In this document: piece after piece, positions 3,483 to 64,000 of the stretch
How the letters are laid out: each line of letters starts with the position of its first letter
Numbering within the stretch: position 1 is the first letter of the stretch
Made by a program: the position numbers and the translations under genes
NCBI GenBank assembly: GCA_038049695.1
Contig: CP142461.1
Location: forward strand, 24,745,001-24,809,000
DNA length: 64,000 bases
Direction of reading: 5' to 3'
From: Cinnamomum chago
Lineage: Eukaryota > Streptophyta > Magnoliopsida > Laurales > Lauraceae
The notes under the pieces: generated by a model
What the model was told of the DNA's origin: nothing
Databases searched by the model: none
Seen by the model: the letters and a program-made list of their open reading frames with translations, nothing else

Positions 3483-3509
3483 AGAACTAGCCGTTGGCAA
3501 CTTTTTGGC

Positions 3510-4590: not shown

Positions 4591-4689
4591 AGTGCTCTAT
4601 CCCTTAGGATCAAGTGTTTGGAACTCTTGATTAGGTGTAAAAACCTAGAGTTAAAACCCTAGAGTAGTGCTTATTTGAAATTCATTAGA

Positions 4690-6264
4690 ATGGACTCCAC
4701 TATGCTAGACTTTGTAGATTCTTCTAGACCCCTCATTCTTCCTTCTATTGGAGATTCAAACGCTCACTTAAATGAATATCAATTTGACTCAAAAGAGGAA
4801 GAAAATGAGTATGATGAAGATGATCTTCAACAAGCCTATAATGAATTATATACATTATCTTCAAAGCTTGATAAGAGAAATAAAAGTCTAAAAGAAGAAT
4901 CAAATAGACTAAACAAAGAGCTAGCCTCTTCAAAAGATGAACTTAGAGAGAAAGAAGAAGTTATAAAATGTCTAGACTCTAAGTTCATGATCTCTTTAAA
5001 TAACCTATCCAACATTCAAGATGAACTAAAAGAATTAAAGATGGGTTATGAAAATGTCAATAAGGAAAATCTAAAACTAAGAGATCAATTACAAAGGCAA
5101 GGTAAAGACTTTAACAATCTTGAATCTAAATTGACTATCTCTAAGAAAAATTTATCTAATGCTCAAGATGAATTAAATGAGATTAAGATAAATTGTGATG
5201 AGCTTAAAAATGAAAATTTGAACCTAAGAGATACAATTAAAAGACAAGATGAAAACATTAACTATTTAAAATCCAAGTTGACAATTTCTAATGAAAACTT
5301 GTCTAATGCACAAAGTAATGTAAAAACTCTAGAACTTGGATCTAATATAGTTAATTAACTTAAAGCTAAGTTAAAACTTGCCAATGAAGAGCTAAGCAAA
5401 TATAAGGAAATTGAAAATGAACTTTCAAAAGTTAAAAATGAAAATTCAATCCTTATAACCAAAGTCACTCAACTTGAAAGCTATAAACAAAAGTATGAGT
5501 GCAAGTTTACCCAAAGTGAAGATAGACTTGAAAAATTATTTAAATTGGGTAAACCTCATGGAGATAGGACGGGTCTTGGTTTTAATAAGTATACTTCACA
5601 TGACCCTAAATTCACCAACACTTTTGTGAAAGGTGAGTCCTCATTCTCTAGCACTCTCTCTCAAATGTCCAAAATTAAATGTCATTATTGTGGTAAAGAA
5701 GGACATCTAAAATTTGAGTGCAAACTAAGAAAAAGAAGCTATGTGTCTAAGCCCATCTTTGAACTAAAGAATGGAGAATCAAAACCTATGAAGGGTAAGA
5801 CACTAAAATCCAAGGAAGACTCCATAAAGCTTAAACAAGTTAAACCAATTAACAAGGAGTCTCCCAAGATAGATTCTAAAAAGCTTAAACAAGTTAAACC
5901 AAGCTTGAAAGAATCTAAGAACAAAAAGCTTCTCAACCTACCTCCCTTATATGAACCCATGAAAGAACTTTTGAAGAAAGTTGCTAAGTTAAATCTAAAA
6001 TTCAAAAGTCAAGTAAAGGGAGAAAGTAAGAAGAAAAGAAAAGTGAAACAATCCCCAAAGAAACAAACTCACCAACATCAAAAGACTAATCACCATTCTA
6101 AGCCAAATTTAGTAAAATCTAAATATCATGGTGATAAGTTCAAATTGAAAATTTATCAAGTTAAATCTCCTATAGTTGGTGAGAAGTCCAAACAAGACCT
6201 CAAAGTTCAACCCTCCCAAGACCTTAGGTGGATTCCAAAAATTATCTACTTAGTCAAACCTTAA
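4690..6264 (+). pseudogene. gag-like frame of element A with one in-frame stop
   Basis: One frame runs from ATG at 4690 to TAA after 6261, broken by a single TAA at 5356-5358; the frame is the same on both sides. The first part (about 220 aa) is acidic near its start and then a long Lys/Glu/Asn-rich predicted coiled coil with three related segments ending in SN-type repeats. The second part has a GKPHGDRTGLGF segment common in plant copia Gag proteins. A CX2CX4HX4C zinc knuckle follows (CHYCGKEGHLKFEC, about 5680-5725), then a very basic tail ending in a WIPK-like motif, as found just before protease in full elements. Gag coats and packages element RNA. No protease or polymerase follows. The single stop may be recent or read through; no frameshift is visible. 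Confidence 0.8.
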
Positions 6265-6279
6265 GGCCTTGAACCTCCT

Positions 6280-8060
6280 TGACCAACCTATCCTTTAATA
6301 GTTAAATTATTTTGTTGGTCATGTTGCTTTGCATTTTGTTCTTTCTTAGTTACATTTCTTAAAATGCATTGTTTCTTTATGATCAATTGATTTTGTTTTC
6401 ATACACCATTCTAAGTTACACTTCATGGTTTTCAAAATCTTTTGATTATAATTTCATCATGTTTGATTTGCTTTTTGCACACATATGTCTTGCATTGCAT
6501 TTCTTTACATGATTAATTGATTGTGATGTTAAAAGCTTTCATAGCTAGATTTATTCATGATCAATTGTTGTTGAATCATTTGTAAGATTTTTTTGAACAA
6601 ATGATTTGAATCAATTCAAGTTTTTCCATGGACTTCTAAGTTATACTTTTATATGGAAAATCATTGTTTTGAAAAATCGACTTGTATGTGTTTCATTTAA
6701 GTCATATCTTTTAAAATACAATGTTGAAAATTGATCTTCAAATTCATTCTTTTTATGCTCATTGTTGGATTTTGTTTATCAAAATGATTTGAAGATTGTT
6801 TGAATGGAAATGCTCTAAAACATCATTAGTTATAATCATCAACGCATGTTCCATGATTCTCATTTCCTTTTTCTTTTGGTTACATCATCTTAGAAATGGA
6901 AATGAATATTGTTTGCATCTTTGCTTATTTGTCTACATTCTTTCTATATGCAAATGACTATTGGTTCCATGTATGGTTGTGATCTTAGTTATATTTGTAG
7001 AAACCATACTAGAACCCAAATCCATCCTCTATGCCTTCTAGTCATTTCTTTTTGGATGGTTATGATGTTGATTCATGTAGATTCTCTTGGTGTCATCCTT
7101 ATACATGTTTCAACTTCATAAGTAGTGATCTTAATCATATGAAACACTTTGAAATCCATTCCTCGTATTTCTATATGTTTAATGGATATCTTAGATGTTG
7201 AATTCATATGATTTTGACACTTTGGAAATTGCATGCTTTACCAAGTCATATCCTTTTGCATTGCAATTTGCCTTGTTCATCACTATGCTCATTAGTTATA
7301 TCTTACAAAGTGATGAATATCCATTTATGATGCTTGATGGTTGTTTGTGTTTGTCACATCCTTGCTATTAATTATATTGACATATTCAATTGGTTTCTTT
7401 TGGTATAATTTTCCATTGATTTCATATCCAATTGATGTCTAATCTTGTGTATGTGATAGACCTTGTGTACATTGGATTGAACTTGATAGTTATATATGTG
7501 TTCCATGTCACACACCATTAGCATCATAATTTTCATGTTTGCCACCTCTCTTGCTCATATAGGTATATCTCATGACCACCATGTTTATGTGTTCATAATA
7601 TTGGTTGGTTATTAGTTGAGGTTGGCTTCATGCTTGAAATTTATTTCACTCTTCTTGCACATAATAGTCATATTTATTGTTTGAATGAAATGATTTCACA
7701 ACTTTTATAGCATATGATTTTCATAGTTATATTGATTGATGCTATGTTTGAGTAAACCCCTTTGTATCATGGATAGCTCTAATTTGGATTTCTCATAATA
7801 GTTATACTTTTAAATCCATTTTAGAGTGATTGATTTAATAGTCATATCCTTAAATCTCAATTGGTATTCTTTGTTTTTCCAATTGATATCCATGATTGCT
7901 TTTCCCATTGACCTTGATCTTTTGGTAATTTGATCATATTGAGCTTTATAGTTAAATGAATCTAATCCTTTCCTTGAAGTTGACCCTCACTTGGTTAAAC
8001 CATCTACTTCTTGCATTTAATAGTTATATCTTGTCAAAGTTTGACAAAAGAAGAGAATGG
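6280..8060 (+). other. Hairpin array of element A with AGTTATATC-like loops
   Basis: No coding frame. The region is a series of short inverted repeats whose loops carry a motif close to AGTTATATC. Clear members (left arm/right arm): TGACCAAC 6280-6287/GTTGGTCA 6314-6321; TGCATTTT 6330-6337/AAAATGCA 6361-6368; ATCTTCAAAT 6734-6743/ATTTGAAGAT 6787-6796; TTCATCACT 7276-7284/AGTGATGAA 7309-7317; ATAGCAT/ATGCTAT 7707-7745; CTCTAATTTGGATTT 7777-7791/AAATCCATTTTAGAG 7812-7826 (two mismatches). Loops are mostly 20-28 nt. Stem sequences are unrelated to each other; the loop motif is shared. Related arrays fill elements B, C and D. Function unknown; candidates are RNA packaging, Gag binding or RNA stability. 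Confidence 0.8.
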
Positions 8061-8160
8061 ATTGAGGGGGAGTGTAAACCTTCATAGGAAGTATTAGTTT
8101 TGATCAAATTCACCCTTGGATTGCCTTTGAGCCCTTAGAGATAACTTACATACATGATAG

Positions 8161-8200
8161 CCTGTTATGAATTTCATTTTCGATTTCATTTGTTAACAGG
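8161..8200 (+). other. Conserved inverted repeat CCTGTTA/TAACAGG
   Basis: CCTGTTA (8161-8167) and TAACAGG (8194-8200) enclose a T-rich 26-nt loop. The same arms recur in element B near 41790-41829 and in C near 48405-48446, where the loop is largely conserved too. The right arm, in ttcatttgttaacagG, also looks like a splice acceptor. Role unknown. Confidence 0.6.
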
Positions 8201-8261
8201 TGCTTCTAAAGGTATTCTTCTTGTCTCATGTGTGTAGGTACCTTTGCAATTTAATGTCAAA

Positions 8262-10495: not shown

Positions 10496-10820
10496 GTCTT
10501 TAATATGATTAATATTGATTTCAAGATGTGCTTATTGATGAGTTATTTCTCCCTTGTTAATCTCTTGGAAATGTATGTATCATAGTGTCAAGATTTCAAA
10601 TGATTTCACATGAATGAGTTTTCTCCACCTTGTGATTAATTGTGAATGGAAAGAATGGAAACAGAGGAACTTGAAATGAGGAGCTCTTTAGCTCATGTTA
10701 TTGTCTTGGAAACATGTATTTAAACCATCTTGTTTATGGTTCTTTGTGGTTGATTATATGTTGGGAGGAAAGGAAAAAGAGGAAGAAAAATCAGCTTTCC
10801 CGGACTTGCTGTACCCAGGT

Positions 10821-10935
10821 CCGATCGATCGGACCTACAGGCCGATCGATCGGACTGTCAGTAACTGTAAGCCTTTTTGGGCCGATCGATCGGACCCTGT
10901 ACATTCTGGTACAGAAATTTCGACCGATCGATCGG
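10821..10935. promoter_or_regulatory. CCGATCGATCGG palindrome cluster, 5' LTR of E
   Basis: Four perfect CCGATCGATCGG dodecamers lie at 10821-10832, 10842-10853, 10882-10893 and 10924-10935. The surrounding DNA is AT-rich. The cluster is in the first half of the LTR, as expected for U3. A role in promoter control or silencing is inference only. Confidence 0.75.
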
Positions 10936-38762: not shown

Positions 38763-39016
38763 TAGTGGAAATCCGGTGGGGTGTTGGATCACAAGCCGGT
38801 AGTGGATGTAGGCATTGAGGCCGAACCACTATAAATCCTTGTGTGATGGTGATTGCTTTGTGGTGATTGTTTTCTTTAAGCTTCCGCATCTTGTATGTTT
38901 AATCATCACATGTGACTAGTTTGTTTTAAAGAAGTTAAAATTGTTAAAATTGGTCATAATTGAAGCTCACCCTATTCACCCCCCCTCTAGGGTTCGGATC
39001 CCCATGGACTTACAAG

Positions 39017-39264
39017 TGGTATCAGAGCTGTAGAGCCTCGAAAAAACTCCTTGTGAGTCGTGATCACTCGCATCCACGGAAACTCTCGCTTGAAATAGCG
39101 GATAAATAGAGACTCTCCGTTCGTGGCAGGCATGTGGGGGGGGGGACTATCGTGCTCCATGTGTCTGGACTCTGATAGGTACCATTTGGTGATCCGTGTT
39201 AAGAGGATGTGGGTCCTCAAGGGTTTTGAAGAAATTCAGACCCCTCAACAAGTGGTATCAGAGC
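39017..39264 (+). other. Duplicated primer binding site of B with a 220-bp insert
   Basis: caagTGGTATCAGAGC occurs at 39013-39028, directly after the LTR, and again at 39249-39264. Elements C and D have one copy followed at once by 'gggttactcc', which in B follows the second copy. The segment 39029-39248 is absent from C and D. It looks like a retroelement leader of different origin, gained by template switching at the primer site or by insertion. Confidence 0.75.
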
Positions 39265-39536
39265 GGGTTACTCCATTTTAGGGCTTAACAACCCGGAGTT
39301 GATCCTTGCTAGATTTGAACCCTAGTGTTGTGATTTATTGCATATCTTTTTAAAGATTTCCACTATGATTGAAAATGTTTTTCCCTAGCCTCTTTGCACC
39401 ACTCTAAGACTTTTCTAAGTTATATCTTCTAGAGTTGGTGAGTCCTCAAAGTGATCTCTCAAGGACACCTTTTCAAGACCTTAGGTGTATTTTCAAAGGT
39501 AGACTATTTGAGTAACCTTAAGGCCTTGATCCCCCT

Positions 39537-41700
39537 AGACCAACCTATTCTTTTTAGTTATTTCTAATTGTTGGTCTTGTTACATTTGCATTTTGTTGCT
39601 TTATAGTCACATCTTTTAAAATGCAATGTTTCTTTGTGATCATTTGATTTTGTATTCATGAACTTCTAAGTTATATCTCATGGTTTTCAAAATCCTTTGA
39701 TTGCAATACTTTCATGATGGATTTGCATTTTGTTCAAATAGTTATATCTCTTGTATTGCTTATCTATTCATGATCAATTGATTATGATTACAAATGCTTT
39801 CATAGCTAGTTTTTTCATGATCAATTGATGTTGGAAAATCATTTGATGTTTGTCATAGTTAGATCCTTTTTGTAAATCAAATGATTTGAATCTATTTAAG
39901 TTTTCCATTGTTTTTCAAAGTTATATCTCTTGGTATGGAAACTTTGTGAGTGTCTATTGTTTTACAATTTGAAAATTTACAATAGTACACTTCTTGTTTT
40001 TCAAATTCACTTGCTCTTATTTCTAAATGATTCTTTATTGGAATTTCATATATTGAAGTGATTTGAGAAACTTTGGAAAATGTTCTATGCTTTATTGGTT
40101 GTATTTTTAGAAGCATTTTCCTTGAATTTATTTCCTTGTGCCTAATTATGATTATATCATTTGGAAGGAAATATTTTTTACAAAAAATTTGCATCTTTGC
40201 TCATTTAGTTATATTTCATTTATGCAAATTGATTTTGATATCTTACTTTGCTTGGTTAGATATGATGTCATTGATTTGCATGTGTTGTGCCTAAATTGGT
40301 ATATATAGTTTCATTAATGCAATTAATGATTGTTTATGTGCTTTATAGTAAAATCTTGTATTTGAGCTTTTTAAGTACATATGTGATTTTATGTGCTAAG
40401 TTCATTTGGTTTAAACCACATATCCATTTTCCATTGCATTGTAAGCATTAGTACATTTGCTAAGAGTGGAGATGTTACACGATAGATTGATCCTTTTACT
40501 TCATACCTTCTTGTGCTTAAATAGTTATACTCTTTTTTATGATTGGTATGAGTTAGATCTTGAGTGTTGATTAATCCTCTCTATGCAAATGTCAAATTGT
40601 TCTATGTATGGTTGTGTTATTTATTATATTTGTAGAAACCATACTAGAACTCAAATCCATCCTCTATGCTTTCTAGTCATATTCTTTTTGGATGGTTATG
40701 ATGTTGATTCATGTATTTACTCTAAGTGATGTCATTCTTATACATGTTTCAACTTCATAGTAGTGTTCTTAATCATATGAAACTCTTTGAAACCCATTTC
40801 TCATATTTCTATATGTTTGATGGATATCTTAGATGTTGAATTCATATGATTTAGTCACTTTGTAAATTGCATGCATTTACCAAGTCATATCCTTTTGCAT
40901 TGCAATTTACCTTGTTCATCACTATGCTCTATAGTCATATCTTTAAAAGTGATGAATATGCATTTATGATGCTTGATGGAATTTTGTGTTTGCCACATTC
41001 TTGCTCTTTATCATGTTATCAAATTCAATTGGTTTCAATTGGTATAATTTTCGATTGATTTGATTTCTTGTGAATGTGATAAATCTTGTGTGCATTGGAT
41101 TGAACTTGATAAGTAATATGATTGTTCCATGTCACACACCATTAGCATCATAATGCTCATGTTGCCACCTCTTTTGCTCATATAGGTATATCTCATGACC
41201 ACCATGTTTATGTGTTCATAATATTGGTTGGTTATTAGTTGAGGTTGGCTTCATGTTTGAATTTCATTTCACTCATCTTGCACTTTAATAGTCATATTTA
41301 TTGATTGAATGAAATGAGTTCAAAACCTTCATAGCATATGCTTTCCATAGTTAGATTATTTGATGCTATGATTAATAAACCCCATTGCTTCATGGATAGC
41401 TCTAATTTGGATTTTTCCTAATAGGTATATCTTTAAATCCATTTTAGAGTGATTGATTTAATAGTCATATCCCTAAATCTCAATTGGTAGTCTTTGTTTT
41501 TCCAATTGATATCCATGATTGCTTTTCTCTTTAGACCTTGCTCTCTTTTGGTAATTTGATCATATTGTGCTTAATAGTTAAATGAATCTAATCCTTTCCT
41601 TGAAGTTGACCCTCAATTGGTTAAACCATCTTCTTCTTGCACCTAATAGTTAAATCTTTGTCAAAAGTTTGACAAAAGGAGAGAATGGATTGAGGGGGAG
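39537..41700 (+). other. Hairpin array of element B
   Basis: Same array as in A, in an element without gag. Clear members: AGACCAAC 39537-39544/GTTGGTCT 39570-39577; AATCATTTGAT 39837-39847/ATCAAATGATT 39876-39886 (11 bp, 28-nt loop with catagttagatcc); TCAAATTCACTT 40001-40012/AAGTGATTTGA 40056-40066 (one bulge); CATAGCAT 41330-41337/ATGCTATG 41363-41370; CTCTAATTTGGATTT 41400-41414/AAATCCATTTTAGAG 41435-41449. Between stems the DNA is AT-rich and non-coding. Array members follow each other every 60-80 bp. Confidence 0.8.
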
Positions 41701-43431: not shown

Positions 43432-45777
43432 TGTTAGGGTTTTTATAGATTGCAATTTGATGGATGCATTATCATTCTAGCATCATGTGATTTACACACT
43501 TGCATTGGTTTTTAAATAAACTTGAAATCTAGTTTTATACATGCATTGGTTTTTAGATTTGGAAAAGTTTGTGTTATATGCATGTTTTGGTTCTAAACTT
43601 GGATGCATTGGTTTTAGAACCCAAAACTCTTTTGAAAACCTATTTCATTGTGCATTATATTTGGAAAATCATCTTGTGATTTTAGGTTTGAGTTTTGCAT
43701 ACATTCATCACAAAAAGAATCATTTGTGTATGCAATTTCATTTGAAAAGAGTTTTCAAGAAATCAAGCAAGCCTTTGTTTTAAAAGTTTTGAAACTTTTT
43801 AGGCTTTTTATGTCATGTTTTAAAAACCATTAGAATCTTTAAAACATGTTTTCCAAGCTTGATTTAGTAGGCAAAAAGGTCCCCCAAGCAAAACCTTCAT
43901 ATATGCAAAAGTTGCATTTTTTGCAAAAAGGGGGGAGTCCCGGCAGTGTCGCCGGTCGACCGAGAGGCAGGTCTCGGTCGACCGAGACAACTGGAGGTAA
44001 AACTGCAGTTTTTGAACTGAAACCTCCAACGGTCAGAAATCTGACCGTTGTGCCTTCCCGGTCGACCGAGACCTCTTTGTCGGTCGACCGAGAACTAGCC
44101 GTTGGGCACTTTTTGCTATAAATATGAGTTCTTTCCCTTGCCAAAAGTTGGGAATTTTTAACCCCTCCTTGAGAGGATTTGAGGCATATCAAAAGGGAAA
44201 AGAACCAAGGGATGAAGGGGAAGATTAGGAAAGCTAAAGCTTGGATTAATGAAGTTAAACCACCAAGTAGGCTCTTCCTTTCTTAATCATATGTTTGCAT
44301 GCTCTTGTTTTATTTTTGGTAAATCATTTCTAGCATGTTAAACTATGTTTGTGTTGTGTCCTTAACATATTTTATGTTTTGAGTTGATTTATTGTTTTGG
44401 ATACAACATCACATGATTCAATCCAAGTAGTACTTGAATTGGTAAATCAAAGTAGATCATGTTAATGAAAGAACTTTGGTAAATCATATGTAACATGATC
44501 CATATACTTGGTTGAATCTTTGATTGTTGTTTTCCATCATAAGAACATCTCTCTCAAAACTAACTTATGTTTTGGATTCAACTTCTTTACAAATCATATG
44601 TTTTCATGTTTTGTTTTATCATTGGTAAATCTTAGTAACATGTTAATCTATGATTTGTTGTATCCTTAGCATGTTCTATATTTTGAATAGATCTATTGTT
44701 TTGGATACATCACCATTGATTCATCAAAGTAGTACTTTATCTTTGGTAAATCTAAGTAGATCATGTTAATGAAATATGTAACATGATTCATATACTTTGT
44801 TGAATCTTTGGTTGTTGTTTTCCATCATAAGAAAATCTCTTTCAAATGTATCTTATGTTTTGGATTCAACATCATTACAAATCATATGTGTATTATTGTT
44901 TTAATGCTTCACAACTTGCCTTTCTTTGATTGGTAAATCATTTTCAAGTTGTCCTTTTAATCACATATGGTTTGTCCCCTAATTTCAATCAAATCATTTT
45001 TTATGTTTTGAGCTTCATTGATGATTTGATTGACATCCCTATGCATCACATGTTTAGAGCTAATCCATTACATACAACTTGTGTAACTTTGATATCATTA
45101 ACAAGTTGTTACTTTTAACATGTGATTGCATTACTTCCTCAATCATAAATGTTTTTGAGCTAAAACTTTCAAAAGCCTTAGGCATACATTTATGAGCTTT
45201 CATTTTCAAAATGATTGAGGACCACACACACACACTTCATTTGTTTTCATCTTTGCATTCATAGTGTGAGTGTGTATTTGTATTTCACTTCCATATCCGC
45301 CTATTTAAGAGGCATTGTAATGAGCTAAATAGAATCTCCATCAAGTGTATGATAGACACTAATTAGAGAGATAACCAACCTTGTGGTTGAAGAGGTTATT
45401 GCTTAGCCTATAAAAGCATAATGTATAGGTTGATGTTAAGCCTTGAAAAACATCATTGTAAGTTTATTGCTTAGCCTTGGAAAGCATATTGTAAAGGTTA
45501 TTGCTTAGCCTATTGAAAAGCATAAATAGTGGAAATCCGGTGGGGTGTTGGATCACAAGCCGGTAGTGGATGTAGGCATTGAGGCCGAACCACTATAAAT
45601 ACTTGTGTGATGGTGCTTGCTTTGTGGTGATTGTTTTTATTAGCTTCCGCATATTGTTTGATAATCATCACTTATGACTAGTTTGTTTTAAAGAAGTTAA
45701 AATTGATTAAAATTGGTCATAGTTGAAGCTCACCCTATTCACCCCCCCTCTAGGGTTCGGATCCCCATGGACTTACA
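43432..45777 (+). repeat. 5' LTR of element C
   Basis: Contains four CGGTCGACCG palindromes (from about 43954 to 44092), TATAAATA near 44117, short CA-dinucleotide tract near 45225 and hairpin units at about 45374-45525. It is longer than the LTR of B because it keeps a segment (about 43560-43750) that B lacks but A, D and C share. Confidence 0.9.
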
Positions 45778-46065
45778 AGTGGTATCAGAGCGGGTTACTC
45801 CATTTTAGGGCTTAACAACCCGGAGTTGATCATTGCTAGATTTGAACCCTAGTGTTGTGTTTTATTGCATATCTTTTAAAGATTTCCACTATGTTTGAAA
45901 ATGATAATTTCCCTAGCCTCATTGCACCACTCTAAGACTTTCTCAAGTTATATCTTCTAGAGTTGGTGAGTCCTCAAAGTGTTCTCTCATGGACAACCTT
46001 TTCAAGACCTTAGGTGAATTTTCAAAGGTAGACTATTTGAGTAACCTTAAGGCCTTGATCCCACT

Positions 46066-48300
46066 AGACCGACCTATTCTTTTTAGTTATATCTATTTGT
46101 TGGTCTTGATACATTTGCATTTTGTTTCTTTATAGTCACATCTTTTAAAATGCAATGTTTCTTTGTGATCATTTGATTTTGTCTTCATGAACTTTTATAG
46201 TTATATCTCATGGTTTTCAAAATCCCTTGATTGCAATTTTTTTTTTCATGATGGATTTGCATGTTGTTCATTTAGTAATATCTCTTATTGTGCATATCTA
46301 TTCATGATCAATTGATTGTGATTACAAATGCTTTCTAGCTAGTTTTTCATGATCAATTGATGTTGGAAAATCATTTGATGTTTGTCATAGTTAAATCCTT
46401 TTTGGAAATCAAATGATTTGAAGCAACCTTAGTTTTCCATTGATTTACAAGTTATATCTTTTGATATGGAAAATTTGTAAGTGTCTATTGTTTTTACAAA
46501 TTGAAAACTTTACAATAGTACACTTCTTGTTTTTCAAATTCACTTGCTCTTAATTCTATAAATGATTCTTTGTTGGAATTTCATACATGAAGTGATTTGG
46601 AAAACTTTGGAAAATGTTCTAAGCTTTATTAGTTATATTTATAGAAGCATTTTCCTTGAATTTATTTCCTTGTGCCTAATTATGATTGTATCATTTGAAA
46701 GGAAATAATTTTTACAAACAATTTGCATCTTTGCTCATTGAGTTACATTCTTTATGCAAATTGATTTTGATGTCTTACATTGCATGGTTGGATATAGTTT
46801 CATTGATTTGCATGTTTGTGCCTAACTTGGTATATTCTCTTAGATGCATTTTGATGATTGTTTATGTGCTTTATAGTAAAATCTTGCATTTGAGCTTTTT
46901 ATGTACATATGTGATTTTATGTGCTAAGCTCATTTGGTTTAAACCACATATCCTTTTCCATTGCATTGTAAGCATATTACATTTGCTAAGAGTGGAGATG
47001 TTACATGATAGCTTAATGGATCATTTTAGATGAATTGGAATTAAACCATTGTTCTTAATAGGTATATCCATTTATGTGGTCCATCTTCATCTTTATGTGA
47101 TCCATGATGTCTCTCTAACTTCATACCTTCTTGTGCTTACATAGTTATATTCTTTATTGATGATATGGTATGAGTTAGATCTTGAGTGTTGATTGATCCT
47201 CTCTATGCAAATGTCAAAGTGTTCTATGTATGGTTGTGATCTTAGTTCTATTTGTTGAAACCATACTAGAACTCAAATCCATCCTCTATGCTTTATAGTC
47301 ATTTCTTTTTGGATGGTTATGATGTTGATTCATGTATATGCTATAAGTGATATCATCCTAATACATGTTTCAACTTCATAGTAGTGATCTTGATCATATG
47401 AAACTCTTTGAAATCCATTCCTCATATTTCTATGTGTTTGATGGATAACTTAGATGTTGAATTCATATGATTTAGTCACTTTATAAATTGCATGCATTTC
47501 AAAGTCATATCCTTGTGCATTGCAATTTACCTTGTTCATCACTATGCTCAATAGTTATATCTTTATTAGTGATGAATATGCATTTATGATGCTTGATGGA
47601 TTTTTGTCACATTCTTGCTCTTTATCATGTTATCAAATTCAATTAGTTTCAATTGGTATAATGTTTGATTGATTTGATTTCTTGTGAATGTGATAAATCT
47701 TGTGTGCATTGGATTGAACTTGATAAGTAATATGGTTGTTCCATGTCACACACCATTAGCATCATTATGCTCTTGTTGCCACCTCTCTTTGCTCATATAG
47801 GTATATCTCATGACCACCATGTTTATGTGTTCATAATATTGGTTGGTTATTAGTTGAGGTTGGCTTCATGTTTGAATTTCATTTCACTCTTTCATGCACC
47901 TTAATAAGTCATATTTATTGATTGAATGAAATGATTTTCAAAATCTTACATAGCATATGATTTTCATAAGTAATATTGATTGATGCTATGTTTGAGTAAA
48001 CCCCATATCATGGATAGCTCTAATTTGGATTTTTCCTAATAGGTATATTTTTAAATCCATTTTAGAGTGATTGATTTAAATAGTCATATCCTAAATCTCA
48101 ATTGGTATTCTTTGTCTTTCCAATTGATATCCATGATGGCTTTTCCCATAGACCTTGCTTTCTTTTGGCAATTTGATCATATGAGCTTGATAGTTAAATG
48201 AATCTAATCCTTTCTTTGAAGTTGACCCTCACTTGGTTAAACCATCTTCTTCTTGTACCTAATAGTTAAATCTTTGTCAAAAGTTTGACAAAAGGAGATA
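46066..48300 (+). other. Hairpin array of element C (best preserved copy)
   Basis: Non-coding. Clear members (left/right): AGACCGAC 46066-46073/GTTGGTCT 46099-46106; TTGCATTTT 46115-46123/AAAATGCAA 46147-46155; AATCATTTGAT 46369-46379/ATCAAATGATT 46408-46418; GGAAAATGTTCTA 46609-46621/TAGAAGCATTTTCC 46642-46655 (one bulge, 20-nt loop with attagttatattt); TTATTTCCTT 46662-46671/AAGGAAATAA 46699-46708; CAATTTGCAT 46719-46728/ATGCAAATTG 46754-46763; CTAACTTCATACC 47115-47127/GGTATGAGTTAG 47167-47178; GTTCTATGTATGGTT 47221-47235/AACCATACTAGAAC 47259-47272; TTCATCACT 47535-47543/AGTGATGAA 47568-47576; CATAGCAT 47949-47956/ATGCTATG 47983-47990; CTCTAATTTGGATTT 48018-48032/AAATCCATTTTAGAG 48053-48067. 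Confidence 0.85.
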
Positions 48301-48893
48301 ATGGATTGAGGGGGAGTGTAAACCTTCATAGGAAGTATTAGTTTTGATCAAATTGACCCTTGGATTGCCTTTGAGCCCTTAGAGACTACTACCTCACATG
48401 ATAGCCTGTTATGTACTTCATTTTCGATTTCATTTGTTAACAGGTGCTACTAATGGTATTTTCCTAGTTTCATGTGTGTAGGTACCTTTGCAATTTAATG
48501 GCAAAGGGGGAGAAATTATGCAAGTTCTCAAAAGGGTAAAGAGAATGTCCAAGCTTCCAAAGGGGAGAGTTGTGTATGATCTTCTACAAAGGGAGAGAAT
48601 GCATACCTTGCCAAAGGGAGAAAGAGGCATGGTCAAAGGGGGAGAGCTAATAGAAGAAAGAAAGCTTGGAGCTAAAGAAGATGCTTGGCCATAAAGAAAG
48701 AAAGATTGAAGAATGATCAAGCACCAAGCATCATGAAGAATGAAGAAAAGAGCTCAAGCTAAGAGAAGGAGCATCCAAGAGAGAAGGAGCATCCAAGAAG
48801 ATTTCAAGCCTTGTCCAGCTGAGGGGGAGCTGAAGACTAAGTGTGTATTTTCAGTGGTGAGTGAGTTTGCCATCAAATTGCAAAGGGGGAGAT
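48300..48893 (+). repeat. Purine-rich zone and polypurine tract of C
   Basis: Repeated aaagggggaga-like motifs as in A and B. A local duplication of 'gagaaggagcatccaaga' occurs near 48765-48800 and is absent from B. The tract caaagggggaga (about 48882-48893) abuts the 3' LTR. Confidence 0.7.
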
Positions 48894-51239
48894 TGTTAGG
48901 GTTTTTATAGATTGCAATTTGATGGATGCATTATCATTCTAGCATCATGTGATTTACACACTTGCATTGGTTTTTAAATAAACTTGAAATCTAGTTTTAT
49001 ACATGCATTGGTTTTTAGATTTGGAAAAGTTTGTGTTATATGCATGTTTTGGTTCTAAACTTGGATGCATTGGTTTTAGAACCCAAAACTCTTTTGAAAA
49101 CCTATTTCATTGTGCATTATATTTGGAAAATCATCTTGTGATTTTAGGTTTGAGTTTTGCATACATTCATCACAAAAAGAATCATTTGTGTATGCAATTT
49201 CATTTGAAAAGAGTTTTCAAGAAATCAAGCAAGCCTTTGTTTTAAAAGTTTTGAAACTTTTTAGGCTTTTTATGTCATGTTTTAAAAACCATTAGAATCT
49301 TTAAAACATGTTTTCCAAGCTTGATTTAGTAGGCAAAAAGGTCCCCCAAGCAAAACCTTCATATATGCAAAAGTTGCATTTTTTGCAAAAAGGGGGGAGT
49401 CCCGGCAGTGTCGCCGGTCGACCGAGAGGCAGGTCTCGGTCGACCGAGACAACTGGAGGTAAAACTGCAGTTTTTGAACTGAAACCTCCAACGGTCAGAA
49501 ATCTGACCGTTGTGCCTTCCCGGTCGACCGAGACCTCTTTGTCGGTCGACCGAGAACTAGCCGTTGGGCACTTTTTGCTATAAATATGAGTTCTTTCCCT
49601 TGCCAAAAGTTGGGAATTTTTAACCCCTCCTTGAGAGGATTTGAGGCATATCAAAAGGGAAAAGAACCAAGGGATGAAGGGGAAGATTAGGAAAGCTAAA
49701 GCTTGGATTAATGAAGTTAAACCACCAAGTAGGCTCTTCCTTTCTTAATCATATGTTTGCATGCTCTTGTTTTATTTTTGGTAAATCATTTCTAGCATGT
49801 TAAACTATGTTTGTGTTGTGTCCTTAACATATTTTATGTTTTGAGTTGATTTATTGTTTTGGATACAACATCACATGATTCAATCCAAGTAGTACTTGAA
49901 TTGGTAAATCAAAGTAGATCATGTTAATGAAAGAACTTTGGTAAATCATATGTAACATGATCCATATACTTGGTTAAATCTTTGATTGTTGTTTTCCATC
50001 ATAAGAACATCTCTCTCAAAACTAACTTATGTTTTGGATTCAACTTCTTTACAAATCATATGTTTTCATGTTTTGTTTTATCATTGGTAAATCTTAGTAA
50101 CATGTTAATCTATGATTTGTTGTATCCTTAGCATGTTCTATATTTTGAATAGATCTATTGTTTTGGATACATCACCATTGATTCATCAAAGTAGTACTTT
50201 ATCTTTGGTAAATCTAAGTAGATCATGTTAATGAAATATGTAACATGATTCATATACTTTGTTGAATCTTTGGTTGTTGTTTTCCATCATAAGAAAATCT
50301 CTTTCAAATGTATCTTATGTTTTGGATTCAACATCATTACAAATCATATGTGTATTATTGTTTTAATGCTTCACAACTTGCCTTTCTTTGATTGGTAAAT
50401 CATTTTCAAGTTGTCCTTTTAATCACATATGATTTGTCCCCTAATTTCAATCAAATCATTTTTTATGTTTTGAGCTTCATTGATGATTTGATTGACATCC
50501 CTATGCATCACATGTTTAGAGCTAATCCATTACATACAACTTGTGTAACTTTGATATCATTAACAAGTTGTTACTTTTAACATGTGATTGCATTACTTCC
50601 TCAATCATAAATGTTTTTGAGCTAAAACTTTCAAAAGCCTTAGGCATACATTTATGAGCTTTCATTTTCAAAATGATTGAGGACCACACACACACACTTC
50701 ATTTGTTTTCATCTTTGCATTCATAGTGTGAGTGTGTATTTGTATTTCACTTCCATATCCGCCTATTTAAGAGGCATTGTAATGAGCTAAATAGAATCTC
50801 CATCAAGTGTATGATAGACACTAATTAGAGAGATAACCAACCTTGTGGTTGAAGAGGTTATTGCTTAGCCTATAAAAGCATAATGTATAGGTTGATGTTA
50901 AGCCTTGAAAAACATCATTGTAAGGTTATTGCTTAGCCTTGGAAAGCATATTGTAAAGGTTATTGCTTAGCCTATTGAAAAGCATAAATAGTGGAAATCC
51001 GGTGGGGTGTTGGATCACAAGCCGGTAGTGGATGTAGGCATTGAGGCCGAACCACTATAAATACTTGTGTGATGGTGCTTGCTTTGTGGTGATTGTTTTT
51101 ATTAGCTTCCGCATATTGTTTGATAATCATCACTTATGACTAGTTTGTTTTAAAGAAGTTAAAATTGATTAAAATTGGTCATAGTTGAAGCTCACCCTAT
51201 TCACCCCCCCTCTAGGGTTCGGATCCCCATGGACTTACA
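48894..51239 (+). repeat. 3' LTR of element C
   Basis: 2346 bp from TGTTAGGG to GGACTTACA. Palindrome cluster from about 49416 to 49554, TATAAATA near 49579, hairpin units at about 50836-50988. Confidence 0.95.
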
Positions 51240-51989: not shown

Positions 51990-53170
51990 TTTCCAACGCG
52001 GTCACCGCGTCTGGAAAAATCAGAATTGCGTCGGGACAGGCTTTACCGACGTAGTACAATGCGTCGGCACCACGTCGGCAACCAAATGCCTGGAAAACCA
52101 TTCCCGACGTAATAATGTTTAGCGTCGGGAAAAAATGGTCATTTACCGACGCAATGGTGCGTCGTCCCAACCGTCAGCAATTCCAACAAACATCAAACTT
52201 AGTGGTCAACCTCACTTCACTGCCGACGCTAAACAACGTCGGTTAAACATTTGCCGACGCTAATAGTAGCGTCGGAATATGTCTTTGACGACGCATACAA
52301 AACGCCGGTAATACATATCCCGACATGTCGAAGCGTCGGGAAATGTCTTCAACGACACATGTAAATTACTATTAGCGACGTAGGGAATGCGTCGGGCAAT
52401 AGATTTACCTAACTTCTGACGCATAACGTCGGTTATACATTTGCCGACGCACATACAAGCATCGGAATACATATTTGACGACGCATACACAACGCCGGTA
52501 ATAGATATCCCGGCGTATTGAAGCATCGGGAAATGTCTTCAACGACGCAGGAAAATTATTTTTAGAGACGCAGACAGTGCGTCGGGAAATAGATGTATCT
52601 AATTTCCAACGCATAATAACATCGGTTATACATTTGCCAACGCACATATTAGCGTCGGAATACATATTTAACGACGCATGCACAACGCCGGTAATAGATA
52701 TCCCGACGTATTGAAGCATCGGGAAATGTCTTTAACGACGCAGGAAAATTATTTTTAGAGACGCAGACAGTGCGTCGGGAAATAGATCTACCTAATTTCC
52801 AACGCATAATAACATCGGTTATACATTTGCCAACGCACATATTAGCGTCGGAATACATATTTAACGATGCATACACAATGTCAGTAATACATATCCCGAC
52901 GTGTTGAAGCATCGAGTTATGTCGTTAACGACGCAGGAAAATTACTTTTGGCTACGCGAAGAGTGCGTCGGAAAATAGTTTTACGTCATTGCCGACGCAT
53001 AATAACGTCGATTATACATTTGCCAACACACACACTAGCGTCGGAATACATATTTGACGACGCATACACAGCGCCAGTCATACATATTCCGACGTGTTAA
53101 TGCATCGAGAAAAGTCTCCAACGCGGGTAGGAAATTTACTTTTGGCGACGCAGAGAGTGCATTGGGAAAT
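51990..53170. repeat. CACTA subterminal repeats: GCGTCGG motifs in tandem units of about 192 bp
   Basis: The phrase atacatttgccgacgc recurs at about 52251, 52441, 52633, 52826 and 53020, giving periods of 190-194 bp. Each unit contains many direct and inverted copies of GCGTCGG/CCGACGC. Subterminal motifs of CACTA elements bind TnpA-type proteins in known cases. Open frames across this stretch merely follow the repeats. Confidence 0.85.
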
Positions 53171-53543
53171 AACTTCTCTTATCAATTAAGAAATAATTGG
53201 AAAAATTAGGAAAAATTCCTGTACAATATTTTCCTGTTCAAATCTACATTTTCAACATTGCACAAGCATAAGCATTGATAAACAACAAATAATCCCACAT
53301 TCATCATGTAACAATAAAAAATAATGACTCATCAATAAATTAAAACCAATCATAAAACTTGTCCATGCCACATAAAATGTAATATCCCATGTAAAAAAAG
53401 GTCAAATATCTCAATAAATTAAATCTCAACTAAAATCTAATCATCATCAAATATCCAAAGTACACCATGAAACACGGCCAGCAAGGAGTAAAATGAACTT
53501 GTTAGAGGGATGACCCATGCCAATTCATAAAACCATCAAATCC
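53171..53543. other. AT-rich 3' flank of the tnpA-like gene
   Basis: Low-GC DNA between the subterminal repeats and the last tnpA exon. It likely contains the 3' untranslated region of the minus-strand gene. No other feature seen. Confidence 0.4.
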
Positions 53544-56492: not shown

Positions 56493-59400
56493 TACAGAAC
56501 ATAACATTAGCTTTAGTATAGAACTTGACTTGCCCCTTTCTTAAAGACATCTCCATCCACACTTGAATCATCACCCAAAACCAAATGAGATTAGGAGTCC
56601 TCTCATAAGCTATGGCAAGAAGCTCTTCTCCATCAGAGTTGTCTCCATAACTTGATGCAGCTGGATTCCAAATGAAACTATCTTTAACTTCTTTTTTTCT
56701 TTTTTCTTTTCTTTTTAACATTTGGCTCTAAATCCCATAATTATTGGGGACAATTCAATTTCCATAGCCACCGACATGAAGGGAGCACTTCTTTATTCAA
56801 AGACTCCCACCAAAAAAACCTCCTTTTCCCTCTCACACCTACACACCCACCCTGCAGGAACATTCCAACACAGGGACTAGATTCAAATATGTTCATTTTT
56901 GCTAGCTCCTGAATATCACAGTCCACAAATTCTTTCACTTCTGCCAGTTAAGCATAAGAAGGCTCAACTCAAATTTAGTTCACAAATACTAAAACAAGAT
57001 GACCGATTGTTCATAGTTCTCTTTTGGTTAAACATAACTAGCTCAAAGGTAAAGTGTTCATAGAAAGACTCAATGTCAAACAACTGCTGGGCCGAATACA
57101 TAAGTCTATTTAGAAGCCAATAATTCTGTTAAGCAAACGTTTCCAGCATCCATGCTCACAAGGCAAGCCAACTGACTCAATTATTCCTCTCCAGCCCCCA
57201 CAATAAGATTCAAATCAGAAACATAGTTTGGATTATGGGGGTTGTATGATCTTAATGTTATTCATAGCAACTTAATCGAAACCTAAAGATGTGTACTCTC
57301 CAGACCTTCTTTTTCTACATTTATTATGCCAGTCGAACTCAGTAATGTGGAACAGCAGGGACTCGAGTGATATATCAAAACATTTAAGTGACTAGAGTGA
57401 TATAACTCAACAATGTGGAACAGCAGGGTCATTTCAACTAAGAAAATCATAAATATACAATTCTCAGCAAGAGAAATTGAATATGAACAAAGAAAATAGA
57501 AAAAAGAGAACCCTTTTCTTTTTTCAAAGACTGCTATCACTAACAATCTCGCAATCCATTCTTAAAAAAGAAAATTTTACATGAAAAATGAACCATCCAC
57601 TGTGGGCCCCCACAATGTCTAACAGTTTGGATCATGAAAGGCCACACTTGCCCAATTTGAGAATTCCAGCAAACCATGTGTCTATCTATACAACCTGAGC
57701 AGTAACAGCCCCACAGTTGCCCAAATTGAGAATTCCAGCAAACCATGTGTGTATCTATACAACCTGAGCAGTAACAGCCCCACAGTTTTAAAAAATTGAA
57801 CAGTTTCCTTATTGTTTACAAAATTGTTTTATCTAGTGCCCCTCTCTCTCTCTCCATCTTTTTCTATCTTTCTCTTTCTCCATAAAAGAACCTAACAACC
57901 GCTCCTTTTAACAAATCAACAAAACATCCCAATCCACCACCCCCACATGAAAACAACAGCCATAAAACTAATAGTAACAAAAATTGAGACATCCCATCCC
58001 ATCCCATCAAACCATACTACTGACCAATATCATCAATGCCCTTATTTCACATCTGCACTCTTTTGCTTTCTCAGGTCTCAAACTGGTTCATTAATGCAAG
58101 AGTCCGGTTGTGGAAACCCATGGTTGAAGAGATGTACCAACAAGAGTCAAAAGAAGAGGAGGATGGAGAAGGAGATGGCAAAAACAACCACACCCAGAGA
58201 GCACAATCACCAATGCCAGCCACTGCAATAACAGCAGGCAAAAGATCTGAAATCAATGCCCAGGATAGTGACCCCACAGTCTCACACAAGGCAATCAATA
58301 GACTACACTACTCGGAAAACCAAGCTGACTTGGGTGACAATGCCGAGATGGGTCAGATCATGGCCCACCTGGGCTCTGACCCACATTGACCACTAGGAGA
58401 CACGTGTTGGATGGATGGGGCTATAGAGATGGGGACCACTGCAAATGGGGCACATTTAGGACCATCATGTGTCATGTTTGGATCCACTGGAGATGTGTCA
58501 CTTACATTGGGGCTCACGCATGCAGAGAACGTGCCCGAAAAGACCTAATTCTCTGTTGCAGATTTTGGAGGGTTATAGAAGAAGAAAAAAGAAAATGGAG
58601 AAAAACCAAATCTTGAAAAATAAAAATAAAAAATCACCCATTTTTCTAATTTCCATTCTTCTCTCTTTCTTTTTCTTCTCCTCCAGAGTTGGGAAAACAC
58701 ATGAATGAGAAGTGAATGTAATTTATTAAAGAGACCCGGATTGATAGATTTGGATGTGGATAATAGGTGGGCTAAATATCAGTAGCTGAAATGATCTTAA
58801 CCCTTAGCTAAAACAACAACAATATTTAAAACAACAACAATATATAGTGTAACGACTAATTTAAACCATGTACCGAAAGCAAATCAGTTAATATAATTTA
58901 GTTACCTTCCATTCTGGTGTCTCCCATTTGTTTTCTATCAGCCAGACCCACTGGGCCGCCCTCTGCGTATCATATGGGCACTGCTTCGGATCGTGGCCAT
59001 TTTCCAACGACTTCTTATAAGCTTTGTATAGCTCCGCCCTGAACTCCCTATAGATATGCATCGCTAGTTTGCCGATTGCATTTGCTACACGTGCGTCAGT
59101 CTTCCAGTCGCCAAAGTCATACTTTTGCTGTCATTTAAAACCAACAAGTGTGAAAAGTAAACAGTAAAGCCTATGAATATAGATTAGAAAGTATAATATT
59201 GTTTTATTACCGCAGCTGCAGTAAAGATTGCCTCCTTGCACCCATCATCAATTGCTCCCCATGTTTCTTTGTTTAATGGTGCAAGCCTCCGAATATGACT
59301 CCCCAGCTCGATTGCAAATGTAGAGGCATTTATACCTTCAAAAGCCCTCGATTGTGCACCTAGCGGAACAGAAATCCTACCGCCCAGAATCCTCATCCTC

Positions 59401-60524: not shown

Positions 60525-63500
60525 TGTTAGGGTTTTTATAGATTGCAATTTGATGGATGCATTATCATTCTAGCATCATGTGATTTACACACTTGCATTG
60601 GTTTTTAAATAAACTTGAAATCTAGTTTTATACATGCATTGGTTTTTAGATTTGGAAAAGTTTGTGTTATATGCATGTTTTGGTTCTAAACTTGGATGCA
60701 TTGGTTTTAGAACCCAAAACTCTTTTGAAAACCTATTTCATTGTGCATTATATTTGGAAAATCATCTTGTGATTTTAGGTTTGAGTTTTGCATACATTCA
60801 TCACAAAAAGAATCATTTGTGTATGCAATTTCATTTGAAAAGAGTTTTCAAGAAATCAAGCAAGCCTTTGTTTTAAAAGTTTTGAAACTTTTTAGGCTTT
60901 TTATGTCATGTTTTAAAAACCATTAGAATCTTTAAAACATGTTTTCTAAGCTTGATTTAGTGGTCAAAAGGTCCCCCAAAGAAATAACTTTGAAATTGCA
61001 AAAGTTGCATTTTTTGCAAAAAGAGGGGGAGTCCCGGCAGTGTCGCCGGTCGACCGAGAGGCAGGTCTCGGTCGACCGAGACAACTGCAGGCAAAAATTG
61101 CCTGGGCGCACCAACGGTCAGAAATATGACCGTTGTGTGTTCTCGGTCGACCGAGGCCTGTTTGCCGGTCGACCGAGAACTAGCCGTTGGCCACTTTTTC
61201 CTATAAATATGAGTTCTTTCCCTTGCCAAAAGTTGGGAATTTTTAACCCCTCCTTGAGAGGATTTGAGGCATATCAAAAGGGAAAAGAACCAAGGGATGA
61301 AGGGGATGATTAGGAAAGCTAAAGCTTGGATTAATGAAGTTAAACTACCAAGTAGGCTCTTCCTTTCTTAATCATATGTTTGCATGCTCTTGTTTTATTT
61401 TTGGTAAATCATTTCTAGCATGTTAAACTATGTTTGTGTTGTGTCCTTAACATATTTTATGTTTTGAGTTGATTTATTGTTTTGGATATAACATCACATG
61501 ATTCAATCCAAGTAGTACTTGAATTGGTAAATCAAAGTAGATCATGTTAATGAAAGAACTTTGGTAAATCATATGTAACATGATCCATATACTTGGTTGA
61601 ATCTTTGGTTGTTGTTTTCCATCATAAGAACATCTCTCTCAAAACTAACTTATGTTTTGGATTCAACTTCTTTACAAATCATATGTTTTCATGTTTTGTT
61701 TTATCATTGGTAAATCTTTGTAACATGTTAATATATGATATGTTGTATCCTTAGCATATTCTATATTTTGAATAGATCTATTGTTTTGGATACATCACCA
61801 TTGATTCATCAAAGTAGTACTTTATTGGTAAATCTAAGTAGATCATGTTAATGAAAGATGTAACATGATTCATATACTTTGTTGAATCTTTGGGTGTTGT
61901 TTTTTCCATCATAAGAAAATCTCTTTCAAATGTATCTTATGTTTTGGATTCAACATCATTACAAATCATATGTGTATTATTGTTTTAATGCTTCACAACT
62001 TGCCTTACTTTGATTGGTAAATCATTTTCAAGTTGTCCTTATAATTACATATGATTTGTCCCCTCTTTTCAATCAAATCTATTTTTATGTTTTGAGCTTC
62101 ATTGATGATTTGATTGACATCCCTATGCATCACATGTTTGGAGCTAATCCATTACATACAACTTGTGTAACTTTGATATCATTAACAAGTTGTTACTTTT
62201 AACATGTGATTGCATTACTTCCTCAATCATAAATGTTTTTTTTGAGCTAAAACTTTCAAAAGCCTTAGGCATACATTTATGAGCTTTCATTTTCTAAATG
62301 ATTGAGGACCACACACACACACTTCATATGTTTTCATCTTTGCATCCATAGTGTGAGTGTGTAGTTGTTATTCACTTCCATATCCGCCTATTTAAGAGGC
62401 AATGTAATGAGCTTAATTGAATCTCCATCAAGTGTATGTTAGACACTAAATTAGTGAGATAACCAACCTTTGGTTGAAGAGGTTATTGCTTAGCCTATAA
62501 AAGCATAATGTATAGGTTGATGTTAAGCCTTGAAAAACATCATTGTAAGGTTATTGCTTAGCCTTGGAAAGCATATTGTAAAGGTTATTGCTTAGCCTAT
62601 TGAAAAGCATAAATAGTGGAAATCCGGTGGGGTGTTGGATCACAAGCCGGTAGTGGATGTAGGCATTGAGGCCGAACCACTATAAATACTTGTGTGATGG
62701 TGCTTGCTTTGTGGTGATTGTTTTTATTAGCTTCCGCATATTGTTTGATAATCATCACTTATGACTAGTTTGTTTTAAAGAAGTTAAAATTGTTAAAATT
62801 GGTCATAAAAGAAGCTCACCCTATTCACCCCCCCTCTAGGGTTCGGATCCCCATGGACTTACAAGTGGTATCAGAGCGGGTTACTCCATTTTAGGGCTTA
62901 ACAACCCGGAGTTGATCCTTGCTAGATTTGAACCCTAGTGTTGTGATTTATTGCATATCTTTTTAAAGATTTCCACTATGATTGAAATTGAAATTTCCCT
63001 AGCCTCATTGCACCACTCTAAGACTTTTCCAAGTTATATCTTCAAGAGTTGGTGAGTCCTCAAAGTGTTCTCTCATGGACAACCTTTTCAAGACCTTAGG
63101 TGAATTTTCAAAGGTAGACTATTTGAGTAACCTTAAGGCCTTGATACCCCTAGACCAACCTATGTTTTTTAGTTATATCTTTTTGTTGGTCATGTTACAT
63201 TTGCATTTTGTTGCTTTATAGTCACATCTTTTAAAATGCAATGTTTCTTTGTGATCATTTGATTTTGTATTCATGAACTTCTAAGTTATATCTCATGGTT
63301 TTCAAAATCCTTTGATTGCAACCTTTTCATGATGGATTTGCATTTTGATCATATAGTTATATCTCTTGTAGTGCATATCTATTCATGATCAATTGATTGT
63401 GATTACAAATGCTTTCATAGCTAGTTTTTCATGATCAATTGATGTTGTAAAATCATTTGATGTTTGTCATAGTTAGATCCTCTTTGGAAATCAAATGATT

Positions 63501-64000
63501 TGAAGCAACCTTAGTTTTCCATTGATTTACAAGTTATATCTTTTGATATGGAAAATTTGTAAGTGTCTATTGTTTTTACAAATTGAAAACTTTACAATAG
63601 TACACTTCTTGTTTTTCAAATTCACTTGCTCTTAATTCTATAAATGATTCTTTGTTGGAATTTCATACATTGAAGTGATTTGGAAAACTTTGGAAAATGT
63701 TCTAAGCTTTATTAGTTATATTTATAGAAGCATTTTCCTTGAATTTATTTCCTTGTGCCTAATTATGATTGTATCATTTGAAAGGAAATAATTTTTACAA
63801 ACAATTTGCATCTTTGCTCATTGAGTTACATTCTTTATGCAAATTGTTTTTGTTGTCTTACATTGCATGGTTGGATATGGTTTCATTGATTTGCATGTTT
63901 GTGCCTATCTTGGTATATGTTTTCATTAATGCAAATTGATGAGTGTTTATGTGCTTTATAGTAAAATCTTGAATTTGAGCTTTTTAAGTACATATGTGAT
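60525..64000 (+). mobile_element. Element D: A/B/C-family element, 5' LTR and part of interior
   Basis: 5' LTR 60525-62863 (2339 bp, TGTTAGGG..CTTACA) with CGGTCGACCG palindromes from about 61049 to 61179, TATAAATA near 61202 and hairpin units at about 62470-62612. Primer site TGGTATCAGAGC at 62866-62877, single copy. The interior starts with the gag-less leader and then the hairpin array. The bases before it (60520-60524, tcctc) would be the target duplication; the right end is outside the window. Confidence 0.9.
63150..64000 (+). other. Hairpin array of element D (window end)
   Basis: GACCAAC 63153-63159/GTTGGTC 63185-63191 with loop ..ttttagttatatctt..; GGAAAATGTTCTA 63692-63704/TAGAAGCATTTTCC 63725-63738; CAATTTGCAT/ATGCAAATTG near 63804-63846. 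Same order as in C. Confidence 0.8.

Follow-up and report, generated by a model that had tools for sequence, protein, structure and literature searches.

Element C, a long terminal repeat (LTR) retrotransposon of Cinnamomum chago, carries in its interior an array of many hairpins that have private stems and a common loop motif. It lies in a 64,000-nucleotide stretch (C11:24745001-24809000 of a 1.06-Gb genome; hereafter the window), in which blastn self-comparison revealed four related LTR elements, A to D. The result confirms the preliminary description of this DNA, which had proposed a retrotransposon interior made of hairpins sharing a loop motif but not a stem. As the preferred explanation we suggest, with a probability of about 0.45, that the hairpin loops may be dispersed packaging signals bound by a zinc-knuckle Gag-like protein.

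Motif sites were defined as matches to AGTTATATC at at least 7 of 9 positions, and the region of element C from 45930 to 48300 was scanned for them. Among the 28 sites detected, 19 are enclosed by stems scoring at least 18, vs. 11% for flanks mixed between sites. The mean best stem scored 19.4 with own flanks and 14.1 with mixed flanks, the observed mean being reached in none of 5000 permutations, and the arrays of B (19.3 vs. 14.1) and A (17.8 vs. 14.1) gave the same outcome (0/5000 each). Dinucleotide-shuffled sequences, a comparison suggested in the preliminary description as a check, yielded fewer arms around the motif (mean stem 15.0), and mixed flanks paired no better than shuffled ones, which bears out its statement that the arms are unrelated between hairpins. 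We also searched for stems independently of the motif (loops of 10-34 nt, score of at least 18), using random windows as control. The motif was present in 13 of 21 loops of C vs. 3.7 in random windows and in 12 of 19 loops of B vs. 3.7 (0/2000 for both). For the partial element D the values were 8 of 11 vs. 2.3 (0/2000; 255/2000 at a score of at least 22), while for A the excess was weak (7 of 17 vs. 3.4; 71/2000) and not significant at scores of at least 20 or 22. The reversed motif was seen in four (C), two (B), three (D) and two (A) of the same loops.

In an open count AGTTATAT was the top enriched 8-mer of the array of C, and the shared loop motif can be written AGT-N-A-W-A, on one strand: in the array of C, 15 sites matching AGTTATATC at 8 or more of 9 positions were found on the plus strand and none on the minus strand. 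A pairing test with the exact core AGTNAWA gave 0/3000 in the arrays of C, B and A and in a Gag-like reading frame of A, and no effect in three control regions or in the LTR (two sites only). Association of motif and stem was likewise absent from control regions, where the lowest value was 467/3000 permutations. Stem density, in turn, is unspecific; stems in the arrays are about twice as many as after shuffling, and the same is true of the Gag-like frame, LTR parts, a frame with a plant mobile domain (PMD) and a satellite. The count of motifs in loops is therefore the telling measure.

At a stem score of at least 17 we counted 19 strong motif hairpins in C, 18 in B and 12 in A; further stems in the array of C carry no motif. 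The 25-30 hairpins previously given for C were thus too many, and the spacing of one per 60-80 bp did not hold either, as the distance between motifs of neighboring strong hairpins is irregular (49-402 nt). The 27 hairpins of C and A that passed geometric filters have a median loop of 24 nt, which agrees with the 20-28 nt proposed, but the measured range is wider (13-31 nt). The median distance of the motif is 9 nt from the preceding 5′ arm and 5 nt from the following 3′ arm, and an alignment of the hairpins cannot hold motif and stems jointly in register. Nor is the array confined to 46066-48300, as was first thought: a weaker hairpin (ungapped stem score 14.5; 12 pairs in a constrained fold) is found upstream, and more occur in the Gag-like frame of A.

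Comparison of the copies showed that arms change at about one third of the rate of the loops between them, both between C and B and among 29 copies of family A. Rates for C vs. B and C vs. A were computed on the 19 strong motif hairpins of C. Between C and B, substitutions were found at 18 of 533 arm, 16 of 170 motif, 35 of 290 remaining loop and 83 of 1138 spacer positions (Fisher test: arm vs. loop 4e-6, arm vs. spacer 0.001); the corresponding values for C vs. A were 54/460, 32/156, 57/264 and 154/850. Pairing was retained better than with randomly placed substitutions from C to B (22.2 vs. 18.5; 0/300) and from B to C (0/300), as well as from C to A (2/300 and 0/300 for two halves). Since LTR stems are conserved too, the LTR was dropped as a neutral control, and other repeats of the window, linker stems and motif-less stems were taken instead. 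Apart from the motif-less stems in the comparison of C with A (see below), these were not significant: z was 0.9 and 0.4 (two directions, C-B) for motif-less stems of the same array, -0.1 to 1.7 for the other repeats (six tests, with between 1 and 8 stems per test) and 1.0 and 0.0 for the linker.

The family-A set comprised 29 arrays of 90-97% identity, that is, the window copy and 28 fetched of 40 listed (6240 candidates). The share of minority bases was lowest in arms (0.023), followed by spacers (0.042), the motif (0.062) and loops (0.077), and variable sites amounted to 63/271, 106/203 and 425/1227 in arms, loops and spacers (arm vs. spacer p 0.0003). Eleven hairpins passed the threshold; their stems are kept in 28-29 and their motifs in 16-29 of the 29 copies. 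In family C (19 distinct copies including B and D) the rates were 0.0071 (arm), 0.0183 (loop) and 0.0132 (spacer). In both sets the copies are akin to each other, and the counts do not represent independent events. Variation along the motif in family A was 0.016 (A), 0.009 (G), 0.006 (T), 0.147 (N), 0.031 (A), 0.066 (T), 0.044 (A), 0.125 (T) and 0.116 (C). AGT was variable at 7 of 33 sites vs. 106 of 203 other loop sites and 37 of 66 sites at motif positions 4-9 (p 0.001 for both); its difference from the spacer was not significant (p 0.14). The constrained loop core in family A is AGT, not the whole of AGTTATATC.

The hairpins extend into coding sequence. Element A contains a Gag-like frame with a coiled coil and a CCHC zinc knuckle, in which no capsid-type Pfam domain was detected. 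TR-GAG elements share their build with family A, having LTRs and a Gag-like frame but lacking pol. Among the best 83 of 8111 genome candidates for this frame that were scored, 61 have no internal stop. We fetched 16 frames, all selected from copies without stops, and obtained a mean dN/dS of about 0.46. In 16 of 16 copies the array follows directly after the frame with no pol (700 nt fetched downstream), and at least four of them lack one array block (about 700 nt, B coordinates). Against codon shuffles that preserve protein and codon usage, the 16 intact frames showed 176 stems vs. 73±7 and 51 AGTNAWA loops vs. 3.9±2.2 (0/100 for both). In each frame copy, no more than 1 of 100 shuffles matched the observed number of stems and no more than 4 of 100 that of motif loops; compared with codon shuffles, the motif as such is more frequent too (141 vs. 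82). The frame of copy A alone gave 9 vs. 4.0 stems (4/600) and 5 vs. 0.5 motif loops (0/600). Within the frames the rates were 0.029 for arms, 0.082 for loops and 0.035 for other sites, and arms were not clearly slower than the rest. As to control frames, the PMD frame holds 23 stems where its codon shuffles give 16 (1/200) and four short frames show no such excess, so that here, too, the motif count and not the stem count is informative. Eleven protein relatives were retrieved from public data. Three Streptomyces-labelled proteins (P0005, P0008, P0010), which match the Gag-like frame at 72-76%, probably represent plant contamination. Pattern and protein scans of viral and genome contig collections revealed no relatives elsewhere.

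Judged by their sequence marks, A, B and C belong to the Sirevirus-type Copia retrotransposons and are not simply large retrotransposon derivatives (LARDs). Their interiors contain AGGGGGAG polypurine octamers (seven in A, five in B and five in C; none on the opposite strand), and in all three the terminal octamer leads into the LTR start as AGGGGGAG-AT-TG. A 13-bp inverted repeat, which in B contains one mismatch, is present in A, B and C; its left arm ends at this octamer and its right arm lies 19-20 bp inside the LTR, closer than the 28-bp average given for the Sirevirus junction repeat (PMC2829016). The 5′ LTRs of A, B and C each contain four copies of CGGTCGACCG, a CGG-CCG palindromic box; such boxes were reported in 13 of 21 elements, and RM-bearing Sireviruses have at least eight (PMC2829016). 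A poly-C stretch near the LTR end of all three elements is a further Sirevirus mark. The LARD-type interior, brought in for comparison by the preliminary description, applies to element C, which has long LTRs (2.3 kb) and a 3.1-kb non-coding interior with no listed open reading frame above 115 aa, but not to family A, which encodes the zinc-knuckle protein. A pol-type frame was not seen in the interiors of A, B or C. Element C is without the Gag-like frame and retains LTRs, primer site, polypurine tracts and the hairpin array; in its linker no motif sites at 7 of 9 or more were detected. The whole window gave no match at gathering score to Rfam families (e.g., the hammerhead of retrozymes). 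Identity within LTR pairs is 99.8% for A, 99.87% for C and 99.6% for B (over a 1176-bp piece), indicating recent insertion of all three elements, and repeats of 5 bp were read by eye at C (AATCT) and A (GTCTT).

Folding predictions for two 1-kb stretches gave z of -7.9 and -8.5 (20 shuffles each), and 12 hairpins folded singly ranged from -1.2 to -3.9. The folding excess is, however, neither strand-specific nor unique to the array. In 350-nt windows the mean z of the arrays was -3.2 to -6.0 on the plus and -2.5 to -3.9 on the minus strand, compared with -4.5 to -5.2 and -3.8 to -4.5 for LTRs and values near zero for the gene region. The 108 windows outside the elements, gene region included, averaged -1.2 (plus) and -1.9 (minus), some single ones being as low as the arrays.

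Several results weigh against a packaging role for the loops. The LTRs equal or exceed the array in structure, and conservation extends to their stems; motif-less stems are somewhat conserved between C and A (z 2.35, 1.84). All nine motif bases are predicted to be unpaired with a mean probability of only 0.17 (vs. 0.11 for sites outside arrays). The variation at motif positions 4-9 matches that of the loop, AGT in family C is no slower than the spacer (0.0127 vs. 0.0132), and one family-A hairpin retains its motif in only 16 of 29 copies. Covariation across copies, which the preliminary description had looked to, was not significant; the arms are strongly conserved nonetheless. Pairs changed on both sides were few, with five still paired and three broken in three alignments. 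Between C and A five were paired and five broken, a result partly due to misalignment around 6600-6900, and slid controls behaved alike. As core stems did no better than these controls, covariation was rejected as proof. A few real swaps were noted by eye, too few for a claim: pair 46066-46106 of hairpin 1 reads A-T in B as well as in C, T-A in A and A/A in D, and the outer pair 47948-47991 of hairpin 17 is A-T in C, T-A in B and T/T in A. Pair 46263-46289 of hairpin 4 is G-T, with T-A in 5 of 19 copies. RNA pairing would favor changes to G-U, and no such excess was observed among single changes (G-U 16 vs. A-C 12, p 0.57); this counts against a reading at the RNA level, and as a discriminator between RNA and DNA the ratio showed no difference. 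Finally, 150 RVT_2 matches were listed among 16771 candidates, and an autonomous partner was not found in four downstream 2.2-kb stretches. None of those four stretches held a motif array, and one had an octamer just past its pol end.

The one-stranded motif, the private conserved stems, the many copies and the presence in a coding frame together argue for single-strand recognition by a binder of many sites. We propose that the loops in the genomic RNA would act as low-affinity, multi-copy docking sites for the zinc-knuckle protein, or for the Gag of a full Sirevirus. The zinc-knuckle protein would gather the RNA and then assemble the particle around it. Family A would provide the protein and carry sites as well, and element C, frame-less with sites, LTRs, primer site and polypurine tracts, would travel in the same particles. 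Sites so many and redundant would leave single ones free to vary, or to vanish in blocks. The recent insertion of element C, with an array and no frame, fits a passenger carrying the ticket only. Rather tentatively, we extend this to an RNA with a distributed code, in which dozens of AGU-loop hairpins in interior and Gag-like frame would be read by its own zinc-knuckle protein, element C being a derived parasite for which the code alone may suffice for mobilization in trans.

The same sequence evidence would fit loops that recruit a host factor instead of Gag, for instance one acting in the export, stability or translational control of a long, mostly non-coding RNA, and element C does keep its array without the Gag-like frame. 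Yet the sites also run through that frame, more than a transport element seems to need, and we consider this alternative somewhat unlikely. Less likely again is a role of the hairpins as single-stranded DNA while reverse transcription proceeds, in strand transfer, protection of complementary DNA (cDNA) or binding of integrase or nucleocapsid. Here G-U is not favored over A-C, the ratios being near composition, and both strands fold about equally; the change counts are small, though, and a one-stranded motif fits RNA equally with either cDNA strand. The structured LTRs of the same elements, with their conserved stems, could also speak for a general role in compacting or protecting the RNA, or for engagement of small-RNA pathways, given that links between Copia hairpins and small RNAs have been discussed for maize (PMC10760457). 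With the loop motif incidental, however, its strong tie to the stems and the slow AGT of family A would not be expected, which makes such a role quite improbable. We disfavor most the possibility that the inverted repeats arose by template switching in reverse transcription and have no present function, unpaired loops simply mutating faster. Loops are indeed faster than spacers (0.121 vs. 0.073, C vs. B) and paired double changes show no significant excess, but arms are slower than spacers in both comparisons, motif hairpins exceed codon-shuffled controls in intact frames, and the common loop motif would be left unexplained.

The nearest working parallel to the proposed packaging signals is found in small RNA viruses. 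Dispersed packaging signals are described for satellite tobacco necrosis virus (STNV), with A.X.X.A loops, and for MS2 (PMC3662417), and RGAG loops for hepatitis B virus (PMC7612645). Shared with these are the many stem-loops per RNA and the short degenerate loop motif, and the STNV genome is the mRNA of its coat protein only (PMC3662417). Unlike the viral signals, the hairpins studied here belong to a Copia retrotransposon, have loops of about 24 nt, form a contiguous non-coding array and have a putative protein partner. The RM repeats of Sireviruses are high-copy inverted repeats of the same retrotransposon group, and CGGTCGACCG, the RM given for a Vitis element, is present here; but RM has conserved arms with a very short center and lies in the LTR or near env, whereas our hairpins have private arms, a shared loop and an interior position (PMC2829016). 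LARDs and terminal-repeat retrotransposons in miniature (TRIMs) resemble our elements in their non-coding interior, assumed to be mobilized in trans and claimed to have conserved RNA structure, and in the tandem LTR-interior arrays known for Cassandra. They differ in that no shared-loop hairpin array is described in the accessible text, and that sister copies here encode a Gag-like protein (PMC7215508). No published description of such an array was found in the literature on non-autonomous LTR elements, LARDs and Sireviruses, as represented by titles and abstract starts, with subscription journals mostly uncovered.

Table 1. Coordinates of the elements, arrays, hairpins and reading frame within the window.
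Feature	Position	Strand	Motif	Remarks
Array of element C	46060..48310	+		non-coding
Upstream hairpin, AGTTATATC loop	45925..45968	+	45946	outside earlier range; under counting threshold
Hairpin 1	46064..46108	+	46085	
Hairpin 2	46115..46155	+	46134	
Hairpin 3	46167..46232	+	46199	long loop
Hairpin 4	46250..46302	+	46274	
Hairpin 5	46368..46419	+	46389	perfect 12-bp stem
Hairpin 6	46431..46475	+	46450	
Hairpin 7	46609..46655	+	46631	
Hairpin 8	46712..46770	+	46741	
Hairpin 9	47120..47174	+	47143	
Hairpin 10	47228..47266	+	47244	
Hairpin 11	47273..47322	+	47297	
Hairpin 12	47316..47382	+	47346	fold z -3.5
Hairpin 13	47484..47529	+	47503	fold z -3.3
Hairpin 14	47531..47580	+	47553	fold z -3.9
Hairpin 15	47696..47757	+	47726	irregular stem
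Hairpin 16	47879..47934	+	47907	
Hairpin 17	47948..47991	+	47969	
Hairpin 18	48010..48075	+	48041	fold z -3.5
Hairpin 19	48242..48304	+	48264	large loop with second small palindrome
Array of element B	39530..41694	+		
Array of element A	6270..8060	+		
Array of element D	63147..64000	+		cut by window end; continues in adjoining stretch L034
Gag-like frame of element A	4693..6264	+		coiled coil, CCHC zinc knuckle; this copy with a single in-frame stop
Hairpin in Gag-like frame	4937..4988	+		loop AGTTATAAA
Hairpin in Gag-like frame	5814..5865	+		loop AGTTAAACC
Hairpin in Gag-like frame	5870..5917	+		loop AGTTAAACC
Hairpin in Gag-like frame	5967..6009	+		loop AGTTAAATC
Hairpin in Gag-like frame	6084..6140	+		loop AGTAAAATC
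Element A	about 2825-10495			
Element B	starts about 36812			3′ LTR split by element C
Element C	43432-51239			inside 3′ LTR of element B
Element D	about 60525 to past window end			partial
5′ LTR of element C	43432..45777	+		blastn self-comparison; ends refined by eye to TG...CA
3′ LTR of element C	48894..51239	+		blastn self-comparison; junction AGGGGGAG-AT-TG
Linker of element C	48309..48891	+		five AGGGGGAG octamers at 48309, 48505, 48637, 48822, 48884
LTR part, stems around TGGTAAATC	49747..50414	+	49779, 49939, 50085, 50393	four stems among 8 sites

The LTR stems around TGGTAAATC possibly belong to the same hairpin class; their loops measure 26-28 nt and homologous LTR stretches are alike, and the permutation was not significant (707/3000 reach the observed value). 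Another perfect LTR stem was noted at 49047-49087. Within the array, 47781-47860 and its homologues in A and B are by eye among the most invariant stretches and may form a long-range stem, GCCACCTC/GAGGTTGGC. A role of the motif as splice site or tRNA complement was considered by reading only and dropped. The family is of high copy number, with 5178 and 6240 candidate places listed in the genome, mostly unscored. C-type arrays recur at steps of about 5.3 kb (C8 49.77-49.80, C3 56.84-56.86 and 66.13-66.17, C1 52.27-52.29 Mb) and Gag-like frames at steps of 5.9-6.0 kb (C2 37.23-37.28, C11 12.51-12.52 Mb). The steps correspond to head-to-tail LTR-interior tandems, as reported for Cassandra, and a further unit follows D in L034. 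Element A is inserted in one copy of a 99% identical duplication (1765-2825 and 10496-13619 vs. 15426-19611), and self-comparison by blastn places its empty site near 16479-16484 in the other. Element B has two copies of its primer binding site within 39012-39265; they are spaced by about 235 bp, and a different sequence separates them. Elsewhere in the window we observed the 840-aa PMD frame (Pfam PMD; 19662-22184), a strongly structured satellite-like array with a 193-bp unit in 4.9 copies (52235-53171) and a KN homeobox domain fragment, probably a homeobox gene exon (58036-58389).

The packaging and mobilization of LARDs and other non-coding retrotransposons in trans is a long-standing open question. 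About 20 naturally varied hairpins with a defined core, a candidate protein in sister elements and natural block deletions make the question of packaging directly testable. If true, our proposal would bring dispersed packaging signals, a concept from small RNA viruses, to LTR retrotransposons.

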